Part shown: positions 17,686-26,706 of the stretch, piece after piece
Layout: every line of letters starts with the position of its first letter
How positions within the stretch are numbered: the first letter of the stretch is position 1
Assembly (NCBI GenBank): GCA_023247085.1
Contig: JAHFHC010000010.1
Location: 8,385 to 35,090, forward strand
Origin: Microcaldota archaeon
GTDB taxonomy: Archaea; Micrarchaeota; Micrarchaeia; Norongarragalinales; UBA8480
Length of the DNA: 26,706 nt
Direction of reading: 5' to 3'
The notes under the pieces: model-generated
What the model saw: the letters and a program-made list of their open reading frames with translations, nothing else
Databases searched by the model: none
Told to the model about the DNA's origin: nothing
Program-made: the position numbers and the translations under genes

Positions 17686-18867
17686 ATGGCTAGGTTTGGT
17701 AAACAAAGTGTCACTCTAATGAAGTACTATTTACTTTTTCTTTTTTCTTTTCTACTTTTTGGATGCATTTCAATCGACCAATCCGATTCAACCGTTACTG
17801 GTGTGCCAAATCAATCTTCCCAGCTTCAAAATGAATCCGCATTGCACGTTGAGCCTATTCCGCAGGAACGTAACCAAAATGAAACGGCTATTAGTTTTCC
17901 TCCAGCTTCGGAAACAAACCCAACCAATCAAACTCCAATTAGTTCATCTTCCACGGGTGTAGCTTCGCAAATGATCCAATTATTCCCAGATTTAAATCAC
18001 CCATATGTTGGGGCTATAAACATAGCTGCAGTTATAGACGACTCGTCTGAATACAACCAACCTGACTCGTATTTTTACAATTTGTTGCAGAACGCTAATC
18101 GGTCTTTCACAGGTTTAACTGGTATTTCGTTTAATGTTATTAACCTAGTCCATTTAGCTAGTAATCAAAATAGTCATCCTGCAGAGCCTAGTACAAATTC
18201 AACTTCAAGTCTAACTCAAAATCAAACTCCATCTAGTTCATCTTCCATTGACCTTGCAAAGGTATATCTCGCACGTTACCCTGCACCAGAGTACTTAATT
18301 ATTTTTACTAGAAATGATCTCTCTGCTATTTCAAAGGGTGGCCGTGGAGGTGGTATAAACGGTTCTTCGTTACCGGCTGATTTTACATGTAATCGACTTC
18401 ATACGATGTATGGCTCTAGATCAATTGTCCTTAATTATGCTGATGCTACGCACAAAGCATTTATCTGTGGATATAATTCCACTAGATTTAAGCCCGGTGG
18501 TTGGAATACGCCACCGACGAGTAAAGTTTCAATAGATGGCCAATGCCACAATAGTCTTGGCATTCCGTGCGTTGTAGAAGGAGGTGCAAGCCGTTGTTCA
18601 AATTGGAGGCAAGTGAGCGGGGTAAATAATACGGTTCTAATAACTGATCTTGATAATCAATTGGTACAAATGATTATAGTCCACGAACTAGGGCATTCTT
18701 TTGCGCCTAGTAATTATGAGCATTTTGGTGCTCGGGACTGCATTGTTCGAACTAGAGCCACGATTAACTGGAGCAATATAGATATTCAAAACTCTGCTAC
18801 TAATTTCTTTGGCTTATGCCCGGATATATTTCCTCGATTCGCACGTAATTATGCGTCATGTTCATAG
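17686..18867 (+). CDS. Secreted zinc metalloprotease lipoprotein, peptidase M64-like
   Basis: A 393-residue exported protein. The signal has a basic start, hydrophobic YYLLFLFSFLLFGC and lipobox Cys27, followed by a long Ser/Asn/Thr/Pro linker (about 30-100 and again 160-190) rich in N-x-S/T sequons. The zinc motif is HELGH (333-337) in the context HELGHSFAPSNYEH, close to the HEFGHSFAGLADEY motif of the M64 (IgA-peptidase-like) family, and the upstream LIIFTRND..SKGGRGGG stretch resembles the N..YGGSGG strand of that family. Six or more Cys in the catalytic half suggest disulfides, as expected outside the cell. The internal ATG at 17719 would give a shorter signal peptide. The substrate is unknown; it may be a surface or neighbouring-cell protein. 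Confidence 0.68.
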   Translation: MARFGKQSVTLMKYYLLFLFSFLLFGCISIDQSDSTVTGVPNQSSQLQNESALHVEPIPQERNQNETAISFPPASETNPTNQTPISSSSTGVASQMIQLFPDLNHPYVGAINIAAVIDDSSEYNQPDSYFYNLLQNANRSFTGLTGISFNVINLVHLASNQNSHPAEPSTNSTSSLTQNQTPSSSSSIDLAKVYLARYPAPEYLIIFTRNDLSAISKGGRGGGINGSSLPADFTCNRLHTMYGSRSIVLNYADATHKAFICGYNSTRFKPGGWNTPPTSKVSIDGQCHNSLGIPCVVEGGASRCSNWRQVSGVNNTVLITDLDNQLVQMIIVHELGHSFAPSNYEHFGARDCIVRTRATINWSNIDIQNSATNFFGLCPDIFPRFARNYASCS

Positions 18868-23471: not shown

Positions 23472-24983
23472 TTAAGTAACGCCGGATCTTGGCGCTACAG
23501 AGTTACCTCTTGCGCTAACTGCAACATTTGAAATAGTTGGTTCAGTTGGCATTTCGCTACCAAATTTTTCCCTGTACTTTGTTTTAATTTTAGCTACGTA
23601 GCCAATTGTTTCTTGTGGTTTTGTATCCCCGCGTCCAAATGCAGTTGGTCCCATGTTGTACGCCGCTAGTAAATCTTCAGTTGTTTCAATGTTAGATGCT
23701 GCACGTCTTTGCCACAAGATTGCCATGTATTGGGCACCCGCACAAACGTTTATTGAAGGATTAATCAGATCATCAAAATTAATTTGGTTATCTTGGTCTC
23801 TATAATTGTTGACTTCGGCTACTGCGGTTTTTCTTAATTGCAATAACCCAAGTGCATTTGCGCCGCTTTGTGCTAAAGTATCTCCGCCGTTATCACCACA
23901 ATTCCCGCCACTTTCTGCTATAATTTGAGCCTTTAGTAGTTTTTCATTAATACCATATTCTGAAGAGCATTCGCTTATGACTGGGTTTAATTCGGCATCG
24001 GTAAATTGGAGGCAAGTGGGGGTTCTTGTTCTAGCAAGTGTCAATAACTCAGTATCTGACTTTGCAGTTACGTCCGCTGTTCCAGCTTCTTCTTCACCAG
24101 TATCTATTTCTTCAATTGCCGGTCCGCTTGCTGCTTCGCCTCTAAATCCTCCGGGGTATTCAATACATTTTGGCTTATCTGAAGGAGAACAATGAAAAGT
24201 TACGTGAAAGTGATTTCCATGTCCCTTCCAGTGTAGTAAAAGCGTTGAAAATATTTGATCTGTAAGTGGCCCGGGGTCATTTTCTGTTGCGTAAACTCTA
24301 AGTTGATTGATTAGAGTTCTGTCAAGCAATATTTGTCTAACTGGCGTGTATTCAGCTAAAGTACGTACAAAAATCCAGTTTGTTTCAGGGTCAAAAGTTC
24401 CAACGCTTGAATCCTGGTTATTGCAGTCCACGTAGCCCCCGCTTGGCGTATTGCATGTAAATGCGAGGTCTGCATCAAGCCCATTTTGGTGCGTTAAATG
24501 CGGGGGGTAAACCAGTCCACCGTCTTGAGCAGATAATGCGTTTATTCTAAGTTTAGTGCCACCCGTTGTATAACTAACTGCACACCCTGCGATTTCAAGT
24601 GAGTTAATTGCTTCTGTCGTAGCCCAATCATGATCAGTTGCCGCAACTTTCAAATATAAATTATCTGCCGGTACTTGAACTCCATTTTCCAACGAGCCGA
24701 CACCACGAGTTGTGCTCACGCTTCCATATTCTCCCATTGCTTTAGAGTCACTTTCAAAGTGTGTAACTTTGCATGGAATGCTGTGGCCGTCAACATGCAC
24801 TTGAGTTGGCGCGCGTGTTTCAATTGTCGGAATCCCACTTGGCGCTTCAGTTGGGCTCACGTCGCTGCCAGTTACAAACACTAAAATTTGATTGTCTTTC
24901 AATTCGTTGCCTTTATACGTCCAAACTGAAGCAACTAACACTAGCCCAAATAAAAACAATGCAGCAAATAGTCTGAGTTTCAT
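23472..24983 (-). CDS. Exported murein hydrolase: MepA (M74) endopeptidase domain plus SLT lytic transglycosylase domain
   Basis: A 503-residue exported or membrane-anchored protein with an N-terminal hydrophobic segment (residues 4-22). Residues about 85-280 match MepA-type murein endopeptidase: THQNGLDADLAF supplies His165 and Asp172, and HGNHFHV supplies His255, His258 and His260, with the same spacing as the E. coli metal-site residues. A linker rich in Glu/Thr/Ala (282-310) leads to an SLT domain (about 335-475): catalytic Glu357 in AQIIAESGGN, GANALGLLQL, INVCAGAQYMAIL and AAYNMGP. Both active sites appear intact. Several Cys suggest disulfides. Archaea have no murein, so the likely target is bacterial cell wall. 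A bacterial source is likely for both domains; the fused architecture is unusual. Confidence 0.88.
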   Translation of the reverse strand: MKLRLFAALFLFGLVLVASVWTYKGNELKDNQILVFVTGSDVSPTEAPSGIPTIETRAPTQVHVDGHSIPCKVTHFESDSKAMGEYGSVSTTRGVGSLENGVQVPADNLYLKVAATDHDWATTEAINSLEIAGCAVSYTTGGTKLRINALSAQDGGLVYPPHLTHQNGLDADLAFTCNTPSGGYVDCNNQDSSVGTFDPETNWIFVRTLAEYTPVRQILLDRTLINQLRVYATENDPGPLTDQIFSTLLLHWKGHGNHFHVTFHCSPSDKPKCIEYPGGFRGEAASGPAIEEIDTGEEEAGTADVTAKSDTELLTLARTRTPTCLQFTDAELNPVISECSSEYGINEKLLKAQIIAESGGNCGDNGGDTLAQSGANALGLLQLRKTAVAEVNNYRDQDNQINFDDLINPSINVCAGAQYMAILWQRRAASNIETTEDLLAAYNMGPTAFGRGDTKPQETIGYVAKIKTKYREKFGSEMPTEPTISNVAVSARGNSVAPRSGVT

Positions 24984-25017: not shown

Positions 25018-25608
25018 TTATTGGGGTTTAGCAATTGGCTTTCGCCAAAATGAAAGAAAAGCAGTATGCATTAATCCCGTGTTAACCGGCCGACACCCAC
25101 GGTTACGCACTAGCCAATCGCGCGTGTTTACTTCCATAATTCTCTCTTGAGAAAAACCAATTGTAATTGCGGTTTCAGCAAATGTGCGAATTTGTTCAAC
25201 ATTCGGGTGATAGCCAACTAGCACTCCGTTCTCTTTCAAGCAATTAAATGCATTGCCAATTGCTTTTTCACTATCAGCTAAATCAAGAATCACAGCATCA
25301 ACATCTTTTTCATCAATGCCATCAAAAACATTTTTCAACTTAAGTTCAACAATTTTTTCAAAACCCAACTTAACTGCGTTTTTTTCAACTAGCTTAGCAA
25401 AATCTTCCCGCCATTCATACGAATAAACCTTGCCTTTTTCTCCAACAACATTAGCAAGAAAAACAGATAGAAACCCCGAGCCAGCACCAGCTTCCACTAC
25501 TCTGTCGCCTGCGCCTATTCCTGCAAAACCAAGGATTGCAGAGGCGTCTTTCAATACAATCACTTGCGGCCCGCGTTTTAACTTTTCAAAAACATTTACG
25601 TCTAACAT
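25018..25608 (-). CDS. trmI: tRNA (adenine-N1)-methyltransferase, TrmI-like
   Basis: Probably makes m1A at position 57/58 of the tRNA T-loop. The 196-residue protein has RGPQVIVLKDASAIL, motif I VVEAGAGSGFLS (37-48), YSYEWRED, VDAVILDLADSEKAI and the C-terminal RPVNTGLMHTAFLSFWRK, all typical of archaeal TrmI. It is shorter than the usual 250 residues: the N-terminal beta domain is nearly absent and the frame starts just before the RG.QVI motif. The ATG at 25608 is used; an in-frame TTG nine bases upstream would add three residues. The neighbouring tRNA-Thr(GGT) is divergent. Confidence 0.8.
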   Translation of the reverse strand: MLDVNVFEKLKRGPQVIVLKDASAILGFAGIGAGDRVVEAGAGSGFLSVFLANVVGEKGKVYSYEWREDFAKLVEKNAVKLGFEKIVELKLKNVFDGIDEKDVDAVILDLADSEKAIGNAFNCLKENGVLVGYHPNVEQIRTFAETAITIGFSQERIMEVNTRDWLVRNRGCRPVNTGLMHTAFLSFWRKPIAKPQ

Positions 25609-25768
25609 AATATACAATTTTCACTTTACAACTTTCACTTACAACTAAGTTTATTTCAATGCAATTAAATAAAACAATAGTGACTCAAATAAGTTCTCCT
25701 ATTGACTTGACAAGCAAACCATAAAAAGTTAAGTTGCTCCATATTTTGTTTCGTTTAGCTGTGTTTTT

Positions 25769-26007: not shown

Positions 26008-26706
26008 ATGGCTAGGCGAGGTGCAAGACGGGAACAAAGAGCAAGAGAACAATTAGACTTTTGGACAACGCGGCTAGGTGCTGAAAGCAAAGGAGTAGAA
26101 CGAGTTCCGCTCGAAGGTGGCTTTGAATTAAAAGAAGGGCGAAGCGTTAAAGTTACAAAAGCTCATTTGCAAGATTTAGCTAAAGAACATGCTAGAACGC
26201 AAATGGACTATGTTTTAAGGGTGGCAAAGAAGAGCGCCTTAGCTGGAAGCGCGGCGCACGCTGCAATTGTAGCTAGGCGTGGAACGGCTGAAGAAATTTT
26301 GGAACTTGCAGGTGCCGCTGCACTCAGAGGTAGGCCAGAAGCTGCTGCTTCAATACTAGCCGATGGAGTGAAAGCAGGCGCACTAAAACCAAGCGACGTT
26401 ACCGATGCTTTTCTTAAGCATGCAGATGCCGCTACACGCAAAGGTAGGCCAGAAGCTGCTGCTTCAATACTAGTCGATGGAGTGAAAGCAGGCGCACTAA
26501 ACAGAGGCCATACGGATGCTTTTCTTAAGCATGCGGATGCAGCTGCACGTGAAGGTAGTCCAGTTGCTGCTGCTTCAATACTAGTCGATGGAGTGAAAGC
26601 AGGTGCACTAAAACCAAGCGACGTTACCGATGCTTTTCTTAAGCATGCAGGTGCCGCTGCACTCAAAGGTAGGCCAGAAGCTGCTGCTTCAATACTAGCC
26701 GATGGA
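26008..26706 (+). CDS. Helical 38-residue-repeat protein, 3' end cut by the window
   Basis: At least 233 residues, open at the window edge. GGTGA at 25994-25998 sets the ATG, ten bases on. Residues 1-107 are a charged, helical head (MARRGARREQRAREQLDFW onward) with no signal peptide. From residue 108 come near-identical repeats of 38, 37 and 38 residues and the start of a fourth: GRPEAAASILADGVKAGALK then PSDVTDAFLKHADAATRK. Each unit predicts two amphipathic helices, so the array should stack as an alpha-solenoid (HEAT/TPR-like), a protein-binding scaffold. The family is not recognised. The repeats are almost identical at DNA level, which suggests recent expansion. Confidence 0.75.
   Translation, partial: MARRGARREQRAREQLDFWTTRLGAESKGVERVPLEGGFELKEGRSVKVTKAHLQDLAKEHARTQMDYVLRVAKKSALAGSAAHAAIVARRGTAEEILELAGAAALRGRPEAAASILADGVKAGALKPSDVTDAFLKHADAATRKGRPEAAASILVDGVKAGALNRGHTDAFLKHADAAAREGSPVAAASILVDGVKAGALKPSDVTDAFLKHAGAAALKGRPEAAASILADG
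26329..26706 (+). repeat. In-frame tandem repeat of 114/111/114 bases
   Basis: Units start at 26329, 26443, 26554 and 26668 (the last is partial). Each begins GGTAGGCCAGAAGCTGCTGC or a close variant. The second unit is one codon shorter because NRGHTDAF replaces KPSDVTDAF. Third-position differences are few. Confidence 0.9.

Follow-up and report, generated by a model that had tools for sequence, protein, structure and literature searches.

A predicted two-domain murein-degrading enzyme joining Peptidase_M74 and SLT domains in one genus of Micrarchaeota

A gene found in one genus of Micrarchaeota encodes a protein in which a Peptidase_M74 domain is joined to an SLT (lytic transglycosylase) domain, and judging from its sequence this real and conserved two-domain protein is probably an active murein-degrading enzyme. 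The gene was identified in a 26,706-nucleotide stretch of DNA (contig JAHFHC010000010.1 of assembly GCA_023247085.1, positions 8,385 to 35,090), hereafter called the window. MepA-type and SLT activities cut the peptide cross-links and glycan strands of murein. The predicted export, activity, bond specificity, target and purpose of the protein make up a reading that we consider likely, namely that it is secreted and degrades the murein of bacteria with two enzymatic activities.

The source MAG measures 0.89 Mb in 36 contigs, with a completeness of 92% and a contamination of 0.26%, and its closest named relative is a Micrarchaeota MAG of the same genus (isolate nzgw34, here L002), which agrees with the archaeal genome claimed in the first-pass annotation of this DNA. 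Full-length two-domain orthologues were found in two other genomes of this genus, L002 (79% identical) and L010 (41% identical). The gene, the parts of its product and the neighbouring synteny markers are located in the window as follows:

23472..24983, minus strand: gene of the M74-SLT protein (503 aa, ATG start), probably exported
24924..24983, minus strand: N-terminal hydrophobic segment, residues about 1-20, read as a putative Sec signal peptide
24699..24923, minus strand: N-terminal region without Pfam domain, residues 21-95
24159..24698, minus strand: Peptidase_M74 domain, residues 96-275 (Pfam)
23979..24158, minus strand: linker, residues 276-335, as deduced from the domain limits
23631..23978, minus strand: SLT (lytic transglycosylase) domain, residues 336-451 (Pfam), with catalytic Glu357
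25018..25617, minus strand: GCD14-like methyltransferase gene, immediately upstream; likewise adjacent in L002 and L010
22965..23441, plus strand: conserved membrane protein, downstream; also at this position in L002
22024..22953, minus strand: Sua5/TsaC L-threonylcarbamoyladenylate synthase; also at this position in L002

Compared with the L002 orthologue, the gene displayed a dS of 0.66 and a dN/dS of 0.21 overall (0.13 for M74 and 0.25 for SLT), which indicates purifying selection on the protein, and it evolves faster than its three neighbours (dN/dS 0.06-0.15). The N-terminal region (residues 21-95), which was sought in 11 genomes, was present solely in the same-genus orthologues.

The first-pass annotation had described a two-domain hydrolase of M74 and SLT type and had called for domain searches; these accepted both profiles, each above its Pfam curated cut-off. 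Peptidase_M74 (PF03411) matched residues 96-275 with an E-value of 8.2e-10 and 39.1 bits against a cut-off of 25, and SLT (PF01464) matched residues 336-451 with an E-value of 2e-10 and 40.7 bits against a cut-off of 21.3. In the family alignment the M74 match recurred in all four rows (best E 8.8e-15), and the SLT match in all three full-length rows. Moreover, the residue numbers that had been given for H165, D172, H255/H258/H260, E357, GLLQ and AAYNMGP proved correct when checked in the sequence.

In the M74 half, HQNGLDAD begins at H165 and includes D172, while GHGNHFH includes H255, H258 and H260. These five active-site residues, which are invariant across four sequences, are aligned to H113, D120, H206, H209 and H211 of E. 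coli MepA. MepA (1tzp, E 5.5e-6) was the sole protein returned when the PDB was searched with a profile of the four M74 domains, and the profile alignment placed its HQTGLDVD (from H113) under HQNGLDAD and its HRAHMHV (H206, H209, H211) under HGNHFHV. The motifs published for MepA are H-x(3-6)-D and H-x-H (PMC3927764), and the protein carries H-x6-D and H-x-H motifs as in the MepA family. The protein shares with E. coli MepA (1TZP/1U10), a penicillin-insensitive murein endopeptidase, the Pfam M74 domain, these motifs and an equivalent of H206, but its identity to MepA is about 20-24% in structure-based alignments, and it is archaeal, is fused to an SLT domain and contains an extra N-terminal region. 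The NCBIfam equivalog PRK09429 was not reached (36.5 bits against a cut-off of 272), and by its sequence the window protein is classed as a member of the M74 family and not as MepA itself. The E. coli M74 enzyme requires zinc and cleaves D-Ala-mDAP (PMC6403190). With the chemistry of its family, the M74 domain would bind zinc through H165, D172 and H260, with the help of H255 and H258, and would hydrolyse D-Ala-meso-DAP peptide cross-links, where DAP-type murein is proposed as the substrate solely because E. coli MepA acts on it.

The motifs of the SLT half are likewise intact, with E357 within AESGG, GLLQ at 379 and AAYNMGP at 440, and the catalytic Glu, G-L-x-Q and AYN motifs are kept in the L002 and L010 orthologues. 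A full-length profile searched against the PDB matched MepA over the M74 half and, over the SLT half, MltC and EmtA. These two GH23 lytic transglycosylases, the best PDB matches, have the SLT domain, the catalytic Glu and the G-L-x-Q and AYN motifs in common with the window protein, which differs from them by its low identity, by small insertions around residues 361-370 and 390-400, and by the peptidase that is the partner of its SLT domain. On the basis of its family, the SLT domain is predicted to cleave the MurNAc-GlcNAc bond via Glu357, yielding 1,6-anhydro-MurNAc, and the M74 and SLT domains may jointly dismantle the cross-links and glycan strands of bacterial peptidoglycan.

Structure prediction of the catalytic sites, another suggestion of the first-pass annotation, had a mixed outcome, in that the MltC and MepA families lead the fold matches at low model confidence. 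The full-length AlphaFold model had a pLDDT of 48, and in Foldseek its leading PDB families were MltC (prob 1.00) and MepA (prob 0.99); the model of M74 alone had a pLDDT of 51, and Foldseek ranked MepA chains first to fifth (E 0.02). Both models are poor because they were built on four sequences only. The Foldseek E-values for the AlphaFold models range from about 0.005 to 0.04, and the predicted fold matches to MltC and MepA are taken as support, not as proof.

The 503-aa protein contains one N-terminal hydrophobic segment and no second one, as well as ten cysteines, and on account of these features it is probably exported from the archaeal cell. No recognised peptidoglycan-binding domain was found in it with Pfam, and the mature protein is acidic (pI 4.8), so that binding to negatively charged walls is not favoured. 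Murein synthesis in the 92% complete genome was probed through two families: PBP transpeptidase was not found, and the single Mur-ligase match reads, by eye, like the folate synthase FolC. Since no PBP transpeptidase was found and murein is not known from archaea, the protein probably acts on murein that belongs to other cells, and the target may be nearby bacteria, whether these are prey, competitors or hosts. Action on bacteria is also the most parsimonious explanation because of this missing PBP transpeptidase, the purifying selection on the protein, and the killing of bacteria by other archaeal peptidoglycan (PG) hydrolases (PMC12352652). The first-pass annotation had proposed a weapon or a tool for attachment; its action on bacteria is upheld in this sense, whereas weapon, feeding and attachment are inseparable by sequence.

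Within Micrarchaeota, M74 was detected in 3 of 295 genomes, all of one genus, and no further M74 was found among the 29 genomes of the order (3 positive), also when a profile built from the family itself was used. The genome that holds L010 contains, in addition, a partial second M74 gene (L015:2-436); it begins at the contig edge, is 43% identical to the window M74 domain, and stops shortly past M74, without SLT. SLT is more widespread (57 of 295 Micrarchaeota genomes), and within the order it was encountered in 15 of 29 genomes (counted from the listing), with M23 in 15 of 29 and Amidase_3 in 3 of 29. Single-ORF fusions of SLT with M23 (L012, L024) and with Amidase_3 (L013, L030) occur in the same order; in L012, the M23-SLT gene adjoins that of a second M23 protein in the same orientation. 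Thus the order repeatedly combines a domain that cuts glycan with one that cuts peptide or amide bonds, and the partners differ. These proteins resemble the window protein in that SLT is joined to a second murein-cutting domain, but the partner domain differs, and a sister relation of the SLT domains was without support in an SLT tree of 31 rows. In this tree the three M74-SLT proteins were united (support 98/83) and most deeper forks were open, and for the latter reason the phylogeny that the first-pass annotation had proposed for finding a donor named none. Plasmid sequences were considered as donors and rejected, as their SLT (about 30% identity) and M74 (about 25-36%) matches are too distant. 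A tentative extension of these observations, to which we give clearly less than an even chance, is that the order consists of bacterium-eating or bacterium-parasitising Micrarchaeota that repeatedly build exported enzymes from SLT and an exchangeable partner (M74, M23 or Amidase_3), and that in one genus the version with M74 has become a fixed and stable gene of the chromosome.

An enzyme that serves the archaeon to attach to a specific host or partner cell, or to enter it, via a limited opening of the bacterial wall where the cells touch, and not to kill or feed, would have domains and biochemistry identical to those of a secreted enzyme degrading bacterial murein, and the small 0.89 Mb genome fits a dependent lifestyle. 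Pfam recognised no adhesin, anchor or surface-attachment domain in the protein, however, and no attachment genes were recognised next to its gene; moreover, Micrarchaeota are usually regarded as partners of other archaea, which are murein-free. Attachment has been put forward in the literature for SLT proteins of the DPANN lineages Woesearchaeota and Pacearchaeota (PMC8204110), but for the M74-SLT protein we regard it as unlikely.

Less probable still is a function in remodelling of the cell's own envelope, or in assembly of a surface or secretion machine, by action on a glycan or peptide other than murein. In bacteria, SLT domains are indeed used by flagella and in the transfer of mobile elements, the SLT part matches a Thermomicrobium flagellar-cluster gene, plasmid lytic transglycosylase genes adjoin S26 signal peptidase genes, and the M74-SLT gene is a stable part of the chromosome in its genus. 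Nevertheless, the presence in a single protein of two distinct domains that cut murein, each with its active site intact, the restriction of M74 to one genus of the order, the lack of a PBP in the genome, and the fact that no secretion or pilus genes were recognised nearby argue against such a function.

The gene neighbourhood bears on the two remaining explanations. The 35-kb contig also encodes a thermosome, IMP dehydrogenase and a deoxyhypusine-synthase-type gene, together with a MetRS gene identified by eye from the sequence, and both the GC content (0.427) and the codon index (0.73) of the M74-SLT gene are inside the range of the neighbouring genes. An origin as the lysis gene (endolysin) of a provirus, or by capture from a phage, would agree with the match of the SLT part to families of phage endolysins and tail lysins (phrog_669, E 9.5e-15). 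Phage matches are limited to the SLT level, however; no relative was found in viral contigs, E. coli MepA was without match in phage records, and the gene is not in a viral lysis region, since its neighbours are conserved archaeal housekeeping genes among which no viral genes were recognised. On account of these neighbours and the empty viral searches a provirus or phage lysin is rejected, and a viral origin is accordingly deemed very improbable. Bacterial contamination or a recent unselected transfer, although the two domains are of bacterial type and the MAG consists of 36 contigs, has a negligible probability and is ruled out by the archaeal genes on the same contig, by the synteny across separate assemblies (neighbours conserved in two other genomes, with both the L002 and L010 orthologues adjoining a GCD14-type gene), by the composition, and by the divergence under selection from the nearest orthologue.

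A 2025 survey reported PG hydrolases in nearly 5% of the archaeal genomes that it covered, with killing of a bacterium by two of these enzymes; its modular enzymes were defined by at least one catalytic and one cell-wall-binding domain (PMC12352652). The window protein, which has two catalytic domains but no binding domain known to Pfam, lies outside this definition, and because the survey required a wall-binding domain the M74-SLT architecture would be missed by it; M74, SLT and Micrarchaeota are absent from the main text of that paper. Those enzymes, from Halogranum salarium Woldo and others, are likewise archaeal, degrade murein as is predicted for the window protein, and are at least in part exported, but they carry a cell-wall-binding domain and the tested ones use M23, in contrast to M74 and SLT in the window protein. 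SLT proteins have also been published for the DPANN lineages Woesearchaeota and Pacearchaeota, with the idea that they serve to attack or attach to bacteria (PMC8204110, PMC9723730). They share with the window protein the DPANN origin, the SLT domain and the proposed action on bacteria, and are extracellular, as is predicted for the window protein, but belong to other lineages, are up to 3,000 aa in size and have no described peptide-cutting partner. In other Micrarchaeota (L041, L042, L031), SLT was seen in very large open frames of about 1,900-2,000 aa, which resemble the large proteins reported in Woesearchaeota.

In bacteria, SLT1 is listed as a partner of Peptidase M74 in Table 3 of a 2019 review, according to our reading of the row assignment in a plain-text version of the table, and the text of the review does not repeat it (PMC6403190). 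By this table listing, the bacterial proteins possess the same catalytic pair, listed in bacteria only. The view of the first-pass annotation, which did not know the fusion as a standard family, consequently needs qualification. For archaea, no description of the M74 and SLT pairing was found, but the general kind of enzyme is already known there. No report of M74 in archaea, or of murein hydrolases in Micrarchaeota, was found in the open-access literature. New are the occurrence of M74 in an archaeal genus (3 of the 29 genomes examined in its order) and the fusion of SLT to M23 or Amidase_3 in the same order. What makes the finding notable is the lineage and the repeated pairing of SLT with other domains in the order, more than the archaeal occurrence of such an enzyme. 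A conserved and probably secreted enzyme that could cut both wall bonds, together with the other SLT fusions, suggests direct dealings with bacteria. The M74-SLT protein can be tested at the bench, and enzymes of this type are candidate antibacterials.

Several other features of the window were observed. The gene at 17686-18867 encodes a probable lipoprotein with a HELGHSF zinc-protease motif, perhaps another secreted protease, for which Reprolysin_3 and Peptidase_M64 matches were obtained below the Pfam threshold only. Another probable lipoprotein (11-1498, 495 aa) has no Pfam match and contains the stretch GSGWNSVFVASILRSLNVPARVGEVNGHGYVWF, which by eye looks like the core of a transglutaminase whose Cys has been replaced. 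Finally, 114-bp tandem repeats in 3.5 copies, coding for 38-aa units, are located at 26307-26706 in an ORF that runs past the contig end.
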